From positions 5,580,001 through 5,644,000 of the forward strand of contig NZ_MWQN01000001.1 in the NCBI RefSeq assembly GCF_002024165.1: a DNA stretch of 64,000 nucleotides, read 5' to 3'. Origin of the DNA: Embleya scabrispora (GTDB lineage Bacteria > Actinomycetota > Actinomycetes > Streptomycetales > Streptomycetaceae). The notes below the pieces were generated by a model that saw only the letters and a list, made by a program, of their open reading frames with translations, did not search any database and was not told where the DNA came from. Shown piece by piece: positions 12,888-20,562 of the stretch (positions are counted from its first letter, which is position 1; the number at the start of each line of letters is the position of its first letter). The translations under genes were made by a program, and so were the position numbers.

Positions 12888-13709
12888 TCACCACTCGCCG
12901 GGGCTCATCGTGAAGTGCGCGTAGGGCACCGTCCAGACCACCTCGCCGGCGGTGTGCGCGGGCTCGCCGTAGGCGGTGCCGTGGTCGCTGGTGACGATCG
13001 CGAAGCACGGCCGGCGGTAGCTCATCGCGCGAAACAGCCGGCCGATGTGCCGGTCCACGTATTCCAGCGCCGCCGCGTGGGTGTCGCGGGTGTCGCCGTC
13101 GGCGGCGGTGGCACCGGGGGTGTGGAACCAGTTCGGGTGGTGCACGGCGGCGACGTCGACGAGCAGGAACAACCGGCGCTCCGGGTCCAGGCCGCCGACC
13201 ACCAGCTCGGCCCGGGCGACCTGGGCCTCGAAGGAGATCGGTGAGGTGACGCCGAGTTCGGGGTCCCAGTGGCTCTCGGCGAACATCCCGGGCAGCACCG
13301 AGTCGAGCGCGCCCTGCTTGTCGAAGCAGCCGACCCCGCCGATGCACGCGGTGTGGTAGCCGGCCTTGGTCAGCGCGCTGGGCAGGTCCGGGGTGTCGAA
13401 CAGCCAGGTGTGCGCGCCGGTCGTCTCGGTGTCGCCGAGGCGGGAGGCGAACAGGCGCGGGTGCGGGCCGGGTCCCTCCGGGGTGGGCAGGTAGCCCGCG
13501 AGGAACGCGGTGTGCGCGGCGAAGGCGAGCCGCGCCGGGGTCTGCCGGCGCTGCCAGCCGCCCTCGGGCAGGACCCGCGCGAGATTGGGCAGTCGGCCGG
13601 CCGCCGCGAGCTCGACGGCCACGTCGTACCGCAGCGCGTCGAGCGTGACGAGCAGCAGGTCCTGCTCACCCACGACGGCGTTCATGTCGGGATCGGTCAT
13701 ATCGGACAT
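12888..13709 (-). CDS. STM4013/SEN3800-type hydrolase (alkaline phosphatase superfamily)
   Basis: A 273-residue protein with the sulfatase/phosphodiesterase metal-site pattern: LLLVTLDALRYD (residues 18-29) at the N-terminus, an early RLAFAAHTAFLAGYLP segment, and VTSDHGTAYGE near the C-terminus. These suit the STM4013/SEN3800 family, which in other bacteria is encoded with a radical SAM protein and STM4012/STM4014 partners. None of those partners is adjacent, so this is an orphan copy. The ATG at 13709 is chosen because GCAGGTGG precedes it; the upstream frame is open but unsupported. It is divergent from the NUDIX cassette. Confidence 0.75.
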   Translation of the reverse strand: MSDMTDPDMNAVVGEQDLLLVTLDALRYDVAVELAAAGRLPNLARVLPEGGWQRRQTPARLAFAAHTAFLAGYLPTPEGPGPHPRLFASRLGDTETTGAHTWLFDTPDLPSALTKAGYHTACIGGVGCFDKQGALDSVLPGMFAESHWDPELGVTSPISFEAQVARAELVVGGLDPERRLFLLVDVAAVHHPNWFHTPGATAADGDTRDTHAAALEYVDRHIGRLFRAMSYRRPCFAIVTSDHGTAYGEPAHTAGEVVWTVPYAHFTMSPGEW

Positions 13710-13852
13710 GCCACCTGCTCCGCTTCTGCTCGGGTGTTCGGGGCCGCCGCCGGTGGCCCGCACGCGGGCGGCGAGTGGATCGCCCATGCCTACCAGAGGG
13801 AGGGGACTCTTCGAGGGATAACCCCCTCGCCGGTTCGGATCCGCCCGTGTAT

Positions 13853-13891
13853 GTTGTTCTCAGATTAAGAAGATCTCAACCGGAGAACAAC
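13853..13891 (+). promoter_or_regulatory. Inverted repeat in the NUDIX cassette promoter
   Basis: GTTGTTCTC (13853-13861) and GAGAACAAC (13883-13891) form a perfect 9-bp inverted repeat with centres 30 bases apart, on one face of the helix. The stretch is conspicuously AT-rich for this genome, with AGATTAAGAAGATCT in between. It lies 82 bases before the NUDIX start and is a good candidate operator, possibly for the NUDIX protein's own helix-turn-helix. Confidence 0.55.
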
Positions 13892-13973: not shown

Positions 13974-14900
13974 ATGGCCGAGACCGCCACCACCGAACGC
14001 GACTGGCTCGCGTCCTACGACCCCAGGGCCTTCGAGCCGATCGCGGTGACCGTCGACATCGTCGCGCTGACGATTCGTCAACTCGGCCCGCCGGCCGGGG
14101 CGTCGGTCGATCCGGAGGGCGGAGCGGGGGGCGGGGCCGGGGGCGACTCGGAGGCGGGGACGGAGCCGGAGGCCGGCCGGGAAGCCGGCGAGGGAGCCGA
14201 GAGCGCCGCCAAGGCGCTGCACGTGCTCCTGGTCCGGCGCGGCGAGATGCCGTTCGCGGGCCGGCTCGCGCTGCCCGGCGGCTTCGTCCGCCCGGTGATC
14301 GATCCGGACGGCACCCGGCACGAGGAGGACCTCGCCGAGGCCGCCGAGCGCGAACTCGCCGAGGAGACCGGGCTCGCCGCCGGCACCCGGCTCGACCGGC
14401 TCCACCTCGAACAGCTGGGCACCTACGGCGCGCCCGGCCGCGACCCGAGGATGCGGATCGTCTCGGTCGCCCACCTCGCCTTCGCCCCGGACCTGCCCGA
14501 CCCGACCGCCGGCGGCGACGCCGCCCACGCGCAGTGGGTCCCAGTCGCCGACGTCGACCCGGCCGATCTGGCCTTCGACCACGCGCGCATCCTCGCCGAC
14601 GGCCTGGAGCGCGCCCGCGCCAAGCTCGAATACTCGCCGCTGGCCACCGCGTTCGCGGGCGAGGAGTTCACCGTCACCGAACTGCGCGAGGTCTACCAGG
14701 CGGTGTGGGGCCGGCCGATGCACGCCGGCAACTTCCACCGCAAGGTGCTCTCGGTACCCGGCTTCGTCCGGGACACCGGCGCCACCACCGCCCGCGGCGG
14801 CGCGCGCGGCGGGCGCCGCGCCCGGCTGTACCGCGCGGGCCCCGCACGTCTGCTGCACCCGGCGCTGCTGCGCCCGTCCCCGGAGGAGGACTCCCGATGA
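13974..14900 (+). CDS. NUDIX hydrolase / NrtR-like regulator
   Basis: A 308-residue protein with a NUDIX domain ending in the canonical RELAEETGL, preceded by GGFVRPV and an enlarged loop. The C-terminal segment (FTVTELREVYQAVWGRPMH, then FHRKVLSVPGFV) matches the winged helix-turn-helix of NrtR-type proteins, in which a NUDIX domain senses ADP-ribose or related nucleotides and controls DNA binding. A Gly/Glu-rich insert of about 40 residues follows the first strand. It is the first gene of a four-gene cassette: its stop overlaps the next start (ATGA). Whether it hydrolyses ADP-ribose or only senses it is open; the RExxEE residues for metal binding are present. Confidence 0.85.
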   Translation: MAETATTERDWLASYDPRAFEPIAVTVDIVALTIRQLGPPAGASVDPEGGAGGGAGGDSEAGTEPEAGREAGEGAESAAKALHVLLVRRGEMPFAGRLALPGGFVRPVIDPDGTRHEEDLAEAAERELAEETGLAAGTRLDRLHLEQLGTYGAPGRDPRMRIVSVAHLAFAPDLPDPTAGGDAAHAQWVPVADVDPADLAFDHARILADGLERARAKLEYSPLATAFAGEEFTVTELREVYQAVWGRPMHAGNFHRKVLSVPGFVRDTGATTARGGARGGRRARLYRAGPARLLHPALLRPSPEEDSR

Positions 14901-16051
14901 CCAGGACGCCCGGCACCACCTCGACCGGCCCCACCACCTTCGACGACGCGCTCGACCTGCTGGCCGGCGCACCGGACCCGCAGGGCGTCTTCGGGCCCTA
15001 CGACGGCACACCGGAGGCCTGTCTGCGGGCGGGCAACCGCACCTATCGGCTGCTCGCGCGCCTGCTCCACCCGGACGCCGCGCCGGCCGACCGCCGCGCC
15101 GAGGCCGCCGCCGCGTTCACCCGGCTCGGCGAGTCGTGGAACCGCTATCAGCAGGACATCACCGGGGTGACCGGCCGTCAGGTGGTGATCACCACCAAGC
15201 GCCGGGTCTACTCGGTCGGCGGCGAGCGGGCGAGCGGCGACATCGCCACGCTCTACAAGGTCAACTACCGGGCCGAGGACGACGGCGAGGCGCGGGCGCT
15301 GCTCAAGCTGCCGCGCTCGGTCACCGACAACGACCTGATGGAGCGCGAGGCCACCGCCCTGGAGCGGATCGCGCGCGAGGGCGATCCGGAATACGCGAAC
15401 TACGTACCCCGGCTGATCGAGACGTTCCGCCATCGCGACGCCGCGTCCGGTACCGAGCGGCGTGCCAACGTGATCGAACGGGTGCGCGGCTTCCGGTCGT
15501 TGGCCGAGGTGCGCGAGGCGTACCCGGACGGTCTGGACGCGCGCGACGTGGCCTGGATGTGGCGCCGACTGCTGGTCGCGATCGGATACGCGCACCGCGC
15601 GGGTGTGGTCCACGGCGCGATCACCCCCGACCACGTGCTGATCCACCCGCGCGAGCACGGCCTGGTCCTGGTCGACTGGTGCTACTCGGTGCTGCTCGAC
15701 GGCCCGGCCGGCGCGGCCCCACCGGAGGCGATCCTGCGGGCGAAGGCGGTCGAGCACGTACCCGCGATGATCGACCGGCACGCCGACCTGTACCCGCCGG
15801 AGATCCCGGCCAAGCAGCCGCCGGAGACCGCCGCGGACGTCTACATGGCGACCCGCTGTGTCACCGGCCTGCTCGCGCCGGACGCGCCCAAGCCGCTGTT
15901 GCGCTTCGCCCGGGGCTGCTCGCTGCCCGCCCCGGCACGCCGTCCGCACGACGCGTGGAAGCTGCTCGGCGAGTTGGACGAACTGCTCGGCAAGCTCTAC
16001 GGCCCGCGCCGCTTCCGGCCGTTCGCGATGCCCACGCGTCGCGAGTCGTAG
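14897..16051 (+). CDS. J-domain-like plus pseudokinase-fold protein
   Basis: A 384-residue protein with two parts. Residues 20-80 look like a J domain: YRLLARLLHPD carries the HPD triplet, followed by AAAFTRLGESWNRY. The rest resembles a protein kinase: an N-lobe (KVNYRAEDDG, LLKLPRS), then HRAGVVHGAITPDHVLIHP where kinases have HRDLKPxNIL, and LVDWCYS where kinases have DFG. The catalytic Asp, Lys and Asn are thus replaced, so it is probably a pseudokinase or binds another ligand. It overlaps the NUDIX gene by four bases (ATGA) with GGAGGAGG upstream. A scaffold or client-recruiting role is inferred. Confidence 0.75.
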   Translation: MTRTPGTTSTGPTTFDDALDLLAGAPDPQGVFGPYDGTPEACLRAGNRTYRLLARLLHPDAAPADRRAEAAAAFTRLGESWNRYQQDITGVTGRQVVITTKRRVYSVGGERASGDIATLYKVNYRAEDDGEARALLKLPRSVTDNDLMEREATALERIAREGDPEYANYVPRLIETFRHRDAASGTERRANVIERVRGFRSLAEVREAYPDGLDARDVAWMWRRLLVAIGYAHRAGVVHGAITPDHVLIHPREHGLVLVDWCYSVLLDGPAGAAPPEAILRAKAVEHVPAMIDRHADLYPPEIPAKQPPETAADVYMATRCVTGLLAPDAPKPLLRFARGCSLPAPARRPHDAWKLLGELDELLGKLYGPRRFRPFAMPTRRES

Positions 16052-16171
16052 GTCCCATCCGACGGAAGCGGCGGCGGTCTCCGCCCGCTTCCGTCGCACC
16101 TTCGGCCGGCCCGCTGGGCCGGCCGGACATCCACGCACGGATCCCTCCGTCCCGATCGGGGAGTGAGCACC

Positions 16172-17167
16172 ATGGGTAGTGGCAATTGGTCCACCAACGT
16201 CTACGACGCGGCCCAGAGTTACAACCGGGCCAGCGGTCGCAGCGCGTTCCACTACGACCACGTCACCAAGAACAGCACGCCGCACAGCGCCTGGAAGGCG
16301 CACGTCGACCTGGATCCGGCGCTCGCGGGGATCCGGGAGAGCCGGGACAGCGACGAACACCCCATGTCGCTGGCCGTCTCGGTGCTGTTCGACGTGACCG
16401 GCTCGATGCTTCGCGTCCCGCAGACCCTGCAGACCAAGCTGCCCGAGCTGTTCGGACTGCTGCTGCGCAAGGGCTATGTGCAGGACCCGCAGATCATGTT
16501 CGGCGCGATCGGCGACGCGACCAGCGACCGAGTCCCCTTGCAGGTCGGCCAGTTCGAGTCGGACAACCGGATGGACGACCAGCTCGGCAACATCCTGCTC
16601 GAAGGCGGCGGCGGCGGGCAAAAGCGCGAATCCTACGAGCTGGCCCTGTACTTCATGGCCCGGCACACCTCGATCGACTGTCACGAGAAGCGCGGCAAGC
16701 GCGGCTACCTGTTCGTGATCGGCGACGAGATGCCCTACCGCAAGGTGCGCCGGTCGGAGGTGCTGGAGTTCATCGGCGACGACATCGGCGAGGACATCCC
16801 GATCGAGCGGATCCTGGCCGAACTGCGGCGCAAGTTCGAGGTGTACTACATCCTTCCGGCCGGGTCCTCCTATGTCGGCGACAAGGAGGTCCTGGGCGAG
16901 TGGAAGGGCCTGCTCGGGCAGCACGTGATCGAACTCGACGACCCCGACGGGGTCTGCGAGACGATCGCGCTGACCATCGGGCTCGCGGAGGACGCGATCG
17001 ACCTGGACGAGGGCCTGGAGCACCTGCGCGACGTGGGCGCCGACGCGCAGGTGGCCAACGTGTCCAAGGCATTGGCCTCGTACGCCCGTTCCGGCGGCGC
17101 GGTGGCCGTCTCCGGCGCGCTGCCGGGCCTGGGCGAGGGCGACGGCGCGGGTACCACGCGCCTGTGA
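16172..17167 (+). CDS. von Willebrand factor A domain protein
   Basis: A 331-residue cytosolic vWA protein. The metal-ion-dependent adhesion site begins with VLFDVTGSM (D74), a DxTGS variant of DxSxS. Further conserved blocks are FGAIGDAT, a glycine loop GGGGGQK, and FVIGDEMPY near residue 190. There is no signal peptide or membrane segment. The ATG at 16172 is chosen because GGGGAG precedes it by eight bases; the in-frame GTG at 16163 overlaps that site. The gene follows the pseudokinase gene by 120 bases and overlaps the PurA-like gene by four (GTGA). vWA proteins usually organise partner complexes. Confidence 0.8.
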   Translation: MGSGNWSTNVYDAAQSYNRASGRSAFHYDHVTKNSTPHSAWKAHVDLDPALAGIRESRDSDEHPMSLAVSVLFDVTGSMLRVPQTLQTKLPELFGLLLRKGYVQDPQIMFGAIGDATSDRVPLQVGQFESDNRMDDQLGNILLEGGGGGQKRESYELALYFMARHTSIDCHEKRGKRGYLFVIGDEMPYRKVRRSEVLEFIGDDIGEDIPIERILAELRRKFEVYYILPAGSSYVGDKEVLGEWKGLLGQHVIELDDPDGVCETIALTIGLAEDAIDLDEGLEHLRDVGADAQVANVSKALASYARSGGAVAVSGALPGLGEGDGAGTTRL

Positions 17168-18450
17168 CACCTCGTCATGTCGCGGTCGTCGACCTGGGGT
17201 TCGGCGACGCGGGCAAGGGCACCACGGTGGACCGGCTGTGCGCGCGAGGGCGTGCGGAGGGGCGGCCGGTCCACGCGGTGATCCGGTTCAACGGGGGTGC
17301 GCAGGCCGCGCACAACGTGGTAACCGACGACGGGCGGCACCACACGTTCGCCCAGTTCGGCTCGGGCACGTTCACCCCGGGCACGCGCACCCACCTGTCC
17401 CGGTTCGTGCTGGTGGATCCGCTCGCGCTGGCCGCGGAGGCCGAACACCTGCGCGCGCTCGGGGTGGCGGATCCGCTCGCGCTGCTCACGGTGGACCGGG
17501 ACGCGCTGTTGACCACGCCGTACCACGCGGCGGCCAATCGGGCCCGGGAGTCGGCGCGCGGGGCGGGGCGGCACGGGTCGTGCGGGATGGGGGTGGGCGA
17601 GACCGCGGCCTTCGCGCTCGCCCACCCGGAACTGGTGCCGCGGGTGGGGGACTGCGGTGCGCCCCGACTGCTGCGTCGGCGGTTGAGCGCGGTGCGGGAG
17701 GTGTTGAGCGCCGAATTCGGGACACCGCTCGGACCCGACGTCGAGGCGTGCGTGGCCGCGTTCACCGGCTTCGGGCGGGCGGTGCGCGCGGTGGACGGGG
17801 GGTATACGGGCGAGCTGCTGCGGGCCGGGCGGGTGGTGTTCGAGGGGGCGCAGGGCGTACTGCTGGACGAGTGGCACGGGTTCCACCCGTACACGACGTG
17901 GTCGACCACGACGTTCGCGGGCGCGGAGGCGTTGGCCGCCGAAGCGGGGGAGGGGGTGTACCGGCTCGGCGTGCTGCGCACCTACACCACCCGGCACGGG
18001 CCCGGGCCGCTGCCGAGCGAGGACGCGGGGCTGACGGCCGCGCTGCCGGATCCGCACAACGGGACCGGGCGGTGGCAGGGCGCGTTCCGGGTGGGCCACT
18101 TCGACGCGGTCGCGCATCGGTACGCGGTCGCGGTGTGCGGGGGTGTGGACGGGCTCGCGCTCACCCACGCGGACGTGCCCGGACGGGTGCCGGGCCTGGG
18201 TGTGGTGCGCGCGTACGCCGGGCCCGAACCCGAGGCGAGTCCGGTCCCGGACCTGGCCCACGCGGAGCGGCTGACCGCGCTGATGGCGGCCGCGCGACCG
18301 GTGGTGGAGCCGGCGCCGTCGGCCGCCGAGTGGCCGGATTTCGCCGCTGCCCGGCTGGGTGCCCCGGTGACCTTGCTCTCGTTCGGTCCGCGCACCGGTG
18401 ACAAGCGCGAGCGGGGGGTATTAGGCTCCTATTACTCTCCGGTAACATAG
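17164..18450 (+). CDS. Divergent adenylosuccinate synthetase (PurA-like)
   Basis: 428 residues, the length of a normal PurA. PurA joins IMP and aspartate using GTP. The N-terminus here reads VVDLGFGDAGKGTTVD, against G-x-Q-W-G-D-E-G-K-G-K in PurA: catalytic Asp and Lys are kept, but the Trp is absent and Glu has become Ala. RFNGGAQAAHNVV retains the catalytic His. FEGAQGVLLDEWHGFHPYTT and the GTP-side segments are recognisable. The divergence suggests another nucleotide or acid substrate, as for phage PurZ, which uses dGMP. The start overlaps the vWA stop (GTGA), so the two products are probably made together. A separate housekeeping purA is expected elsewhere. Confidence 0.8.
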   Translation: MTPRHVAVVDLGFGDAGKGTTVDRLCARGRAEGRPVHAVIRFNGGAQAAHNVVTDDGRHHTFAQFGSGTFTPGTRTHLSRFVLVDPLALAAEAEHLRALGVADPLALLTVDRDALLTTPYHAAANRARESARGAGRHGSCGMGVGETAAFALAHPELVPRVGDCGAPRLLRRRLSAVREVLSAEFGTPLGPDVEACVAAFTGFGRAVRAVDGGYTGELLRAGRVVFEGAQGVLLDEWHGFHPYTTWSTTTFAGAEALAAEAGEGVYRLGVLRTYTTRHGPGPLPSEDAGLTAALPDPHNGTGRWQGAFRVGHFDAVAHRYAVAVCGGVDGLALTHADVPGRVPGLGVVRAYAGPEPEASPVPDLAHAERLTALMAAARPVVEPAPSAAEWPDFAAARLGAPVTLLSFGPRTGDKRERGVLGSYYSPVT

Positions 18451-18691: not shown

Positions 18692-19486
18692 GTGAAAATC
18701 GTTGTCTGCGTGAAGTACGTACCCGACGCGACCGGGGACCGGGGCTTCAACGACGATGGCACCACCGATCGCGAGTCGGTCGACTCCCTGCTGTCGGAGC
18801 TGGACGAATACGCGATCGAGCAGGCTCTCAAGATCGTGGAGTCCGGCGTCGAGGCCGAGATCACGTACCTGACGGTCGGTCCGGACGATGCCAAGGACGC
18901 GCTGCGCAAGGCGCTGGCGATGGGCGGCGACAACGCCATCCACGTCAACGACGACGACATCGCGGGCACCGACGCGCTGGGCACCTCGCTGATCCTGGCC
19001 AAGGCCATCGAGGACGCGGGCTTCGACCTCGTCGTGTGCGGCATGGCCTCCACCGACGCGTCGATGGGCGTCGTGCCGGCCATGCTCGCCGAGCGCCTGG
19101 GTGTTCCGCAGGTCACCTACCTGGACGAGATCACCGTCGAGGGCGCGGGCAAGGGCGGCGGCGTGGTCAAGGGCCGCCGCGAGGGCGACGTCGCCACCGA
19201 GCTGATCGAGGCCTCGCTGCCCGCCGTCGTGTCGGTCACCGACCGCACCGGCGAGGCGCGTTACCCCTCGTTCAAGGGCATCATGGCGGCCAAGAAGAAG
19301 ACCGTCGTCTCGAAGGACCTGGACGACCTGGGCATCGAGTCGGACGAGGTCGGCCTGTCCGCCGCCTGGTCGGTCGTGGACACCGCGACCAAGCGCCCGC
19401 CGCGCGCCAAGGGCGAGGTCGTCGAGGACGAGGGCGAGGGCGGCGTGCAGCTGGCCGCGTTCCTCGCCGCCAAGAAGTTCATCTGA
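18692..19486 (+). CDS. etfB: Electron transfer flavoprotein beta subunit
   Basis: A 264-residue protein of the FixA/EtfB family. It opens with MKIVVCVKYVPD and contains ALRKALAMGGDNAIHV and the conserved LAERLGVPQVTY segment typical of EtfB. With EtfA it carries electrons from acyl-CoA dehydrogenases to the respiratory chain via ETF:quinone oxidoreductase. The GTG start has CAGGAGAA upstream. etfA follows after 116 bases on the same strand. Length is normal for the family and no defect is visible. Confidence 0.95.
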   Translation: MKIVVCVKYVPDATGDRGFNDDGTTDRESVDSLLSELDEYAIEQALKIVESGVEAEITYLTVGPDDAKDALRKALAMGGDNAIHVNDDDIAGTDALGTSLILAKAIEDAGFDLVVCGMASTDASMGVVPAMLAERLGVPQVTYLDEITVEGAGKGGGVVKGRREGDVATELIEASLPAVVSVTDRTGEARYPSFKGIMAAKKKTVVSKDLDDLGIESDEVGLSAAWSVVDTATKRPPRAKGEVVEDEGEGGVQLAAFLAAKKFI

Positions 19487-19602
19487 GTCGGTCGGCAGAA
19501 CCGGACTGTTTCGACACCTTTGACCGGCCGCCCCCCGGGGCGACCGAGCATCGCAACCCGGCCGGAGAGATCCGGGCTGTACCGGAGTAGGAGAGAACAA
19601 CC

Positions 19603-20562
19603 ATGGCCGAGATCCTCGTTCTCGTCGACCACGCCGACGGCGCGGTCCGCAAGCCGACCCTGGAGCTGCTGACCCTGGCCCGCCGCCTCGGCGAGCCGGC
19701 CGCGGTCTTCCTGGGCAAGGGCGCCGAGGGCGCCACCGAGACGCTGGGCAGGTACGGCGCGCAGAAGGTCTACGTCGTGGACGCGCCCGAGGTGGACGAG
19801 TACCTCGTCGCCCCGGCCGTCGACGCGCTCGCGCAGATCGCCGGGGGCGGCGCGCCGGGCGCGATCCTGGTCGCGTCCTCGAACGACGGCCGCGAGATCG
19901 CGGCGCGCGTCGCGGTGCGCCTGGAGTCGGGCCTGATCACCGACGCCGTCGACGTCGAGGCGGGCCCCGAAGGCCCGGTTACCGAGCAGTCGGTGTTCGC
20001 CGCGACCTACCAGGTCAAGGCGCACGTCACCAAGGGCACCCCGATCATCACGGTCAAGCCGAACGCGGCCACCCCCGAGGAGGCCCCGGCCACCCCGACG
20101 GTGGAGGCCGTGACGGTGGACTTCACCGCCTCGGCGACCGGCACCAAGGTCGTCTCGCGCGCCCCGCGCGAGAAGTCCGACCGCCCCGAGCTGACCGAGG
20201 CCGACATCGTCGTCTCGGGTGGCCGCGGCGTGAACGGCGCGGAGAACTTCCACGTGATCGAGTCGGTCGCGGACGCGCTCGGCGCGGCCGTGGGCGCCTC
20301 CCGCGCGGCGGTCGACGCCGGCTGGTACCCGCACAGCCACCAGGTCGGCCAGACCGGCACCCAGGTCTCGCCGCAGCTCTACGTCGCGGTCGGCATCTCC
20401 GGCGCGATCCAGCACCGCGCGGGCATGCAGACCTCCAAGACGATCGTCGCGATCAACAAGGACGAGGACGCCCCGATCTTCGACCTGGTCGACTACGGCG
20501 TGGTCGGCGACCTGTTCAAGGTGATGCCGCAACTCGAAGCCGAGATCAACAAGCGCAAGTAG
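19603..20562 (+). CDS. etfA: Electron transfer flavoprotein alpha subunit
   Basis: A 319-residue EtfA/FixB protein. The C-terminal FAD-binding domain shows [37 protein letters not shown] and the family signature [17 protein letters not shown] ... [21 protein letters not shown]. The ATG is preceded by GGAGAG. It partners with EtfB directly upstream, and the pair ends at a hairpin terminator. EtfA supplies most of the FAD contacts of the heterodimer. Confidence 0.96.

Follow-up and report, generated by a model that had tools for sequence, protein, structure and literature searches.

A conserved gene cassette of Embleya scabrispora and other actinobacteria pairing a PurA-like enzyme with a vWA-like protein, with a phage-borne core and a possible link to NAD

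The best-described relatives of the genes considered here belong to several separate systems. Adenylosuccinate synthetase (PurA) has a phage-encoded counterpart, PurZ (N6-succino-2-amino-deoxyadenylate synthase), known from phiVC8 and S-2L, and in PurA residue Arg303 contacts both aspartate and the ribose O2' (PMC8342488). In the NrtR regulator of Mycobacterium smegmatis (MsNrtR) hydrolysis has been lost, and ADP-ribose releases the protein from DNA (PMC6800001). Phages carry salvage operons for nicotinamide adenine dinucleotide (NAD), and vWA proteins are at the center of conflict systems dependent on nucleoside triphosphates (NTPs), the description of which (Kaur et al. 2020; PMC7159879) mentions neither PurA nor adenylosuccinate. 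Relatives of these components are found side by side in a four-gene cassette of Embleya scabrispora (assembly GCF_002024165.1, contig NZ_MWQN01000001.1, positions 5,580,001 to 5,644,000; this whole stretch of 64,000 nucleotides is referred to as the window), which encodes a NUDIX/NrtR-like regulator, a J-domain-like pseudokinase, a vWA-like protein and an altered PurA-like enzyme (Table 1). The cassette is apparently undescribed: no description of the gene combination was found in the open-access papers searched, with subscription literature and preprints outside the scope; nothing on it came up either when such papers were searched for phage proteins resembling PurA or for modified bases in cluster C phages, and PurA goes unmentioned in those searched on vWA, jumbo-phage and NAD systems. 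The reading favored here, to which a probability of about 40% is given, is that the cassette is a self-contained, NAD/ADP-ribose-responsive system that would modify a purine nucleotide.

The four genes form a real conserved cassette across many actinobacteria. A protein search of 297 genomes of the same class (actinomycetes) found a close PurA-like relative in 28 of them, the window's own genome included, and an independent profile search recovered the vWA-like family in exactly the same 28 genomes and in no other, a pairing that is not due to chance. In 80 further named loci (from Embleya, Frankia, Actinomadura, Micromonospora, Streptacidiphilus and others), the order NUDIX-pseudokinase-vWA-PurA in a single orientation was observed in 72; the wide loci show one gene order and often keep the same 4-bp overlaps. 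The pseudokinase is missing in three of the 80 (L080, L096 and L136), and the upstream genes are missing in five, most likely because the contig ends there. Flanking genes are common only within lineages (e.g., Streptomycetaceae), and the unit therefore consists of the cassette genes alone. The spread is patchy: the cassette occurs in 30 of the 40 genomes (species) of one genus, one of them with a short fragment, and 199 Streptomyces genomes yielded only two weak partial matches. Core-bearing plasmids were seen in Rhodococcus, Tsukamurella, Acetobacter and Agrobacterium, with the NUDIX gene located downstream, divergent or absent. An earlier note on this DNA, made from the letters alone, had proposed a four-gene system; the expectation that the genes should co-occur elsewhere is borne out almost without exception, while the unit itself needs to be redrawn as a pseudokinase-vWA-PurA trio with a variably placed NUDIX regulator. 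Individual loci also showed a natural deletion that has taken away the last part of the pseudokinase gene together with the first part of the vWA gene (L038:7662-8671), a vWA gene with an in-frame TAG (G396:C5:524889-525875) and a vWA fragment (G369:C71:51212-51505).

By profile (Pfam Adenylsucc_synt, PF00709; 1.5e-56) and by predicted structure (AlphaFold model with a predicted local distance difference test score, pLDDT, of 87.8; best Foldseek match E. coli PurA at a template modeling score of about 0.8, with PurZ lower), the fourth protein is a member of the PurA superfamily. When residues were compared across 190 members, 112 of them bacterial and 78 viral, Asp13, Lys16, His41 and Gln224 were unchanged in every one, and Asp333, at the guanine site, nearly so; near Arg143 the alignment is not secure. 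By contrast with this invariant catalytic set, the site of the partner substrate is uniformly rebuilt: Arg303 is absent and Val273 is replaced by His in all 190, Asn38 becomes Gln in 186 and Thr301 becomes Gln in 187 (Thr300/Thr301 are Trp/Gln in most bacteria). Arg131 and Arg305, which on the strength of mutagenesis work we take to bind aspartate in E. coli PurA, are absent in 112 of 112 bacterial members and are not among the residues listed for the viral ones. The earlier note had drawn attention to the retained catalytic Asp, Lys and His and to a changed P-loop. Both are seen, but of all the differences the P-loop change (GDAGKG here in place of GDEGKG) carries the least information, the Glu being retained in most viral members; judged from the alignment, the alteration that tells most lies where the active site faces aspartate and the ribose. 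A catalytic set that never varies, combined with a uniformly rebuilt partner-substrate site, argues for an active enzyme with an acceptor other than aspartate, and not for decay; a pseudo-enzyme was rejected in view of the invariance of the catalytic set over 190 divergent members. In a tree built by a quick method with no bootstrap, the family stands apart from canonical PurA (Shimodaira-Hasegawa-like approximate likelihood ratio test, SH-aLRT, 100), and its actinobacterial members fall within the viral ones at a support of 98. It is not PurZ either, as in the phiVC8 enzyme position 13 is occupied by Ser and position 273 by Val, so that by its predicted active site the family is neither PurA nor PurZ. 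A distant canonical purA is also present in 28 of the 28 cassette genomes; together with the rebuilt aspartate site, this speaks against the possibility, named in the earlier note as one that would undo its proposal, that the protein makes ordinary adenylosuccinate and replaces purA.

The first gene of the cassette encodes a protein matching both NUDIX (1.6e-17) and the NrtR winged helix (NrtR_WHD, 3.1e-11) in Pfam above the cut-offs, and its family profile matches the Shewanella NrtR structure 3gz5 in the PDB at 6.6e-46, in agreement with the NrtR-like winged helix that had been read from the sequence. The upstream regions have in common a palindrome, GTTsTTCTC...GAGAAsAAC, of which at least one half-site is found in 81 of 97 regions, whereas a first-order Markov model predicts 0.48. 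In regions that retain both halves intact, the distance from one start to the other is almost invariably 29 bp. A scan of the 10.96-Mb genome for the full 39-bp palindrome gave a single match, the one at this operon, and none for its reversed control. Because this conserved palindrome is unique in the genome, the NrtR-like protein is probably a dedicated autorepressor, with predicted binding of both DNA and a ligand. Of 104 members, 90 have an intact Nudix box and at least nine a degenerate one, a pattern that fits a sensor more than a required hydrolase.

The second protein is best called J-domain-like, because its match to Pfam DnaJ (E 0.012, 16.1 bits) falls below the curated cut-off of 27.8; its kinase-like matches are weak, and its library match is phrog_3043 (kinase). 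Its HPD motif is invariant in 14 of 14 aligned orthologues and is the best-kept motif of the pseudokinase family overall (98 of 106 bacterial and 41 of 53 viral members). The AlphaFold model shows it flanked by two helices (residues 39-57 and 64-89), as HPD is by helices II and III in J-domains, with a protein-kinase fold following. Each of the 14 aligned members has HGA where HRD would stand, so that the aspartate of active kinases is gone. The earlier description of an HPD-containing J-like segment joined to a kinase fold without the HRD aspartate is thus upheld, and the HPD motif suggests that the protein may recruit DnaK. For the third protein, the motif of the metal-ion-dependent adhesion site (MIDAS) that had led to its description as a vWA protein, D-x-T-G-S, is present in 110 of 111 bacterial members (D-x-[ST]-x-S in 73 of 85 viral ones), and a GDE motif is also nearly universal. 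However, no Pfam, NCBIfam or PDB profile matches the family as vWA, and phrog_2971, a group with no assigned function, is the single library entry it matches; the motif part of the claim stands, and "vWA-like" is used here for the family.

The core of the cassette is also carried by phages. About 190 Mycobacterium phages (Bixzunavirus) have both the vWA-like and the PurA-like gene, as do Rhizobium and Vibrio phages; the pseudokinase is present in the mycobacteriophages and absent from the Vibrio and Rhizobium phages examined. Amongst 80 viral contigs recovered with the vWA profile, the PurA-like gene adjoins the vWA gene in 78 and the ordered trio is present in 58; portal, terminase and DNA-polymerase/UvsX genes support a phage origin for L214, L215 and L210. 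Within about 5 kb of the core in 85 viral loci, no additional family recurs in more than nine, and DatZ, MazZ and DpoZ were not found there, whole phage genomes lying outside this search. Apparent pseudokinase-vWA fusions in L214 and L223 proved false, as the open reading frames (ORFs) begin just before the vWA gene. The phage PurA-like genes (e.g., L198:7280-8608) are named "2-aminooxy adenylosuccinate synthetase" by RefSeq and PHROGs; this is the PurZ name, and on about 190 phage records it is likely a misannotation, since the active site differs from that of PurZ. As a name shared with PurZ it is uninformative for the PurA-like family, and it was dropped as a clue to function. Phages without the pseudokinase have, in its place before the vWA gene, an unrelated family of 237-302 amino acids with a methionine-rich C-terminus (Table 1). 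In Rhizobium phage TM30 (L202:2942-8000), genes for a HAD hydrolase, PRTase_3, NUDIX and HIRAN proteins lie just 5' of vWA-PurA, and its PRTase_3 and HAD genes resemble the nucleoside-like metabolite genes of Ter systems.

Gene neighborhoods in a few phages link the system to NAD metabolism. On a 512-kb viral contig (L235, 2601-9603), genes for NrtR, NAMPT, vWA, PurA-like, pseudokinase and NMNAT-like proteins follow one another in that order, and on a 416-kb viral contig (L225, 4180-10611) the series is NrtR-like, vWA, a NUDIX protein (the N-terminus of which is read as NMNAT-like), NAMPT, PurA-like and pseudokinase. A NAMPT fragment lies just before the vWA gene in L240, NAMPT is found in seven of 50 core-bearing contigs overall, and NADAR is near the core in Vibrio phages. 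The tie to NAD is drawn from these phage salvage-operon cases together with the NrtR-type regulator present in about 100 bacterial loci. The suggestion in the earlier note of a nucleotide- or ADP-ribose-linked pathway is strengthened by the dedicated operator and by the NAMPT/NMNAT phage operons under NrtR; the chemistry and biological role of such a pathway are what we infer.

Table 1. Positions of the cassette features in the window, and of the family that replaces the pseudokinase in some phages.
Feature	Position	Strand	Basis
NUDIX / NrtR-like regulator, 308 amino acids	13974-14900	+	Pfam NUDIX and NrtR_WHD; PDB NrtR profile match
J-domain-like segment (HPD 15068-15076) fused to pseudokinase (HGA for HRD), 384 amino acids	14897-16051	+	Motifs, AlphaFold, phrog_3043
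vWA-like protein, MIDAS-type DVTGS 16391-16405, 331 amino acids	16172-17167	+	Motif; co-occurrence with PurA-like; phrog_2971
PurA-like enzyme (candidate), 428 amino acids; P-loop 17203-17220; His278 17995-17997; rebuilt aspartate loop WQGAFR 18073-18090	17164-18450	+	Pfam, AlphaFold, Foldseek, residue survey
Palindromic operator (predicted) GTTGTTCTC-N21-GAGAACAAC	13853-13891	.	83-121 bp 5' of NUDIX start; conserved half-sites, genome-unique
Pseudokinase-replacing family	L201:7222-7935, L202:6777-7568, L203:7190-7903, L279:4065-4973		

The tight layout first noticed in the window is confirmed: all four ORFs are present on the plus strand, with an ATGA overlap (14897-14900) between the NUDIX and pseudokinase genes, a gap of 120 bp between the second and third genes, and a GTGA overlap (17164-17167) between the vWA-like and PurA-like genes. 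The PurA-like protein is 96% identical to its Embleya hyalina counterpart. Immediately around the cassette lie a sulfatase/phosphodiesterase-like gene on the 5' side (12888-13787) and, on the 3' side, an electron-transfer-flavoprotein alpha gene, likely preceded by the beta gene (18694-20562); these were set aside as cassette parts, other cassette loci being without them.

Under the favored reading of an NAD/ADP-ribose-responsive nucleotide-modifying system, the NUDIX protein would repress the operon until ADP-ribose or a related NAD-breakdown product builds up. Probably using guanosine triphosphate, the PurA-like enzyme would then phosphorylate a purine at its 6-oxygen, the target being either a nucleotide resembling inosine monophosphate or a dinucleotide of the NAD/ADP-ribose type, and would join to it either ammonia or some non-aspartate amine, so that an N6-modified or re-aminated nucleotide results. 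This enzyme may be activated or assembled with the help of the vWA-like and J-pseudokinase proteins, working as a DnaK-coupled factor. The bacterial cassette would be switched on while NAD is being consumed, and the phage core would protect or rebuild nucleotide or NAD pools during infection. A bolder version, and a doubtful one, is that the enzyme acts specifically on an NAD-type dinucleotide or on ADP-ribose, at the purine, and yields an N6-modified or re-aminated NAD/ADP-ribose species not seen before, which large phages and bacteria would use as an NADase-resistant cofactor or as a signal under NAD destruction. Several points weigh against the general scheme. The direct adjacency to NAD salvage is seen in only two or three phage contigs, a figure that has no control count beside it; the bacterial cassettes contain no NAD gene, and the cassette's operator has no second copy elsewhere in the genome of the window. 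The activity, substrate and ligand of the cassette proteins are all predictions from sequence, and the vWA identity is motif-based. A few bacterial loci and about a quarter of the viral ones are without the pseudokinase, so it would not be essential everywhere.

That the system serves instead as a conflict or stress effector, with the modified nucleotide acting as a signal or toxin when NAD is consumed and the phage core as a counter-defence or anti-competitor device, is a serious though unlikely possibility. The patchy and self-contained occurrence on plasmids, phages and chromosomes would suit such a role, and the vWA-like, J-like and pseudokinase parts resemble parts of conflict systems; PADLOC also gives a weak match of the pseudokinase to MkoA (3.9e-12); however, the other cassette genes match no PADLOC system and PADLOC calls none, no effector or toxin domain is encoded, and the stable presence in 30 of 40 species of one genus differs from most defence systems. 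The abundance of the core in large phages also recalls DNA-base modification of the PurZ/Z-DNA kind, in which a modified deoxypurine nucleotide would be made for phage DNA and the cassette retained by bacteria. PurZ, the only studied phage relative of PurA, serves that purpose, and the loss of the ribose contact Arg303 is in keeping with it; nevertheless, the family keeps Asp13 in place of the PurZ serine, the aspartate loop that PurZ partly keeps is lost here, the neighborhood of the core has no recurrent polymerase, DatZ-, MazZ- or kinase-like gene, and chromosomal NrtR-regulated copies in bacteria fit poorly, which leaves this explanation distinctly unlikely.

An altered PurA-type ligase with a dedicated regulator could also belong to a specialised pathway for a nucleoside or nucleotide metabolite, with no role in NAD or phage conflict, and the HAD and PRTase_3 genes close by in phage TM30 may be counted in its favor. 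Such a pathway is quite improbable, given that no other biosynthetic, transport or resistance gene was found conserved with the cassette and that the core is carried by unrelated phages. An ordinary second adenylosuccinate synthetase (e.g., a backup PurA), to which the PF00709 match and the PurA fold would point, is highly improbable, considering that canonical purA is kept in every cassette genome, that the aspartate site is uniformly rebuilt around invariant catalytic residues, and that the family forms a separate clade.

The system has been overlooked, with its enzyme annotated as a plain adenylosuccinate synthetase (or under the PurZ name in phages) and its vWA-like partner in no Pfam family. 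If the reading of the active site is right, the PurA superfamily would have, besides PurA and PurZ, a third branch whose acceptor is new and whose product is tied to NAD metabolism, and this bears on the conflict between phages and hosts over NAD as well as on modified nucleotides. The Bxz1-type mycobacteriophages, which are grown on M. smegmatis, carry the core, making it directly testable.

Compared with the described systems, the cassette is in each case a partial match. With the vWA-centered conflict systems it shares a vWA-type component, chaperone-like partners and prevalence in actinobacteria, but it has neither a MoxR AAA+ gene nor an effector domain. With E. coli PurA (1ade, 1cg3) the PurA-like family shares the fold, the P-loop with Asp13 and Lys16, and His41, Gln224 and Asp333, whereas it lacks Arg303, has altered Thr300/Thr301 and His273, and is found beside purA in genomes, tied to a vWA-like gene. 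Like PurZ, it is a phage-encoded member of the PurA superfamily, and both fall in phrog_1211; PurZ, however, has Ser13 and Val273 and uses aspartate, while this family has Asp13 and His273 and is without Arg303. The regulator resembles the NrtR proteins of Shewanella (3gz5) and M. smegmatis in joining NUDIX to a winged helix and in the palindrome 5' of its own gene, although the operator differs from the mycobacterial GTTTTCGA-N7-TCGAAAAC and in bacteria precedes the cassette and not nadABC. Finally, the described phage NAD-salvage pathway (NAMPT/NadV and NMNAT) is without vWA-like, PurA-like and pseudokinase genes and most cassettes have no adjoining NAMPT or NMNAT, whereas L235 and L225 each have the cassette genes within such an operon, together with an NrtR gene.

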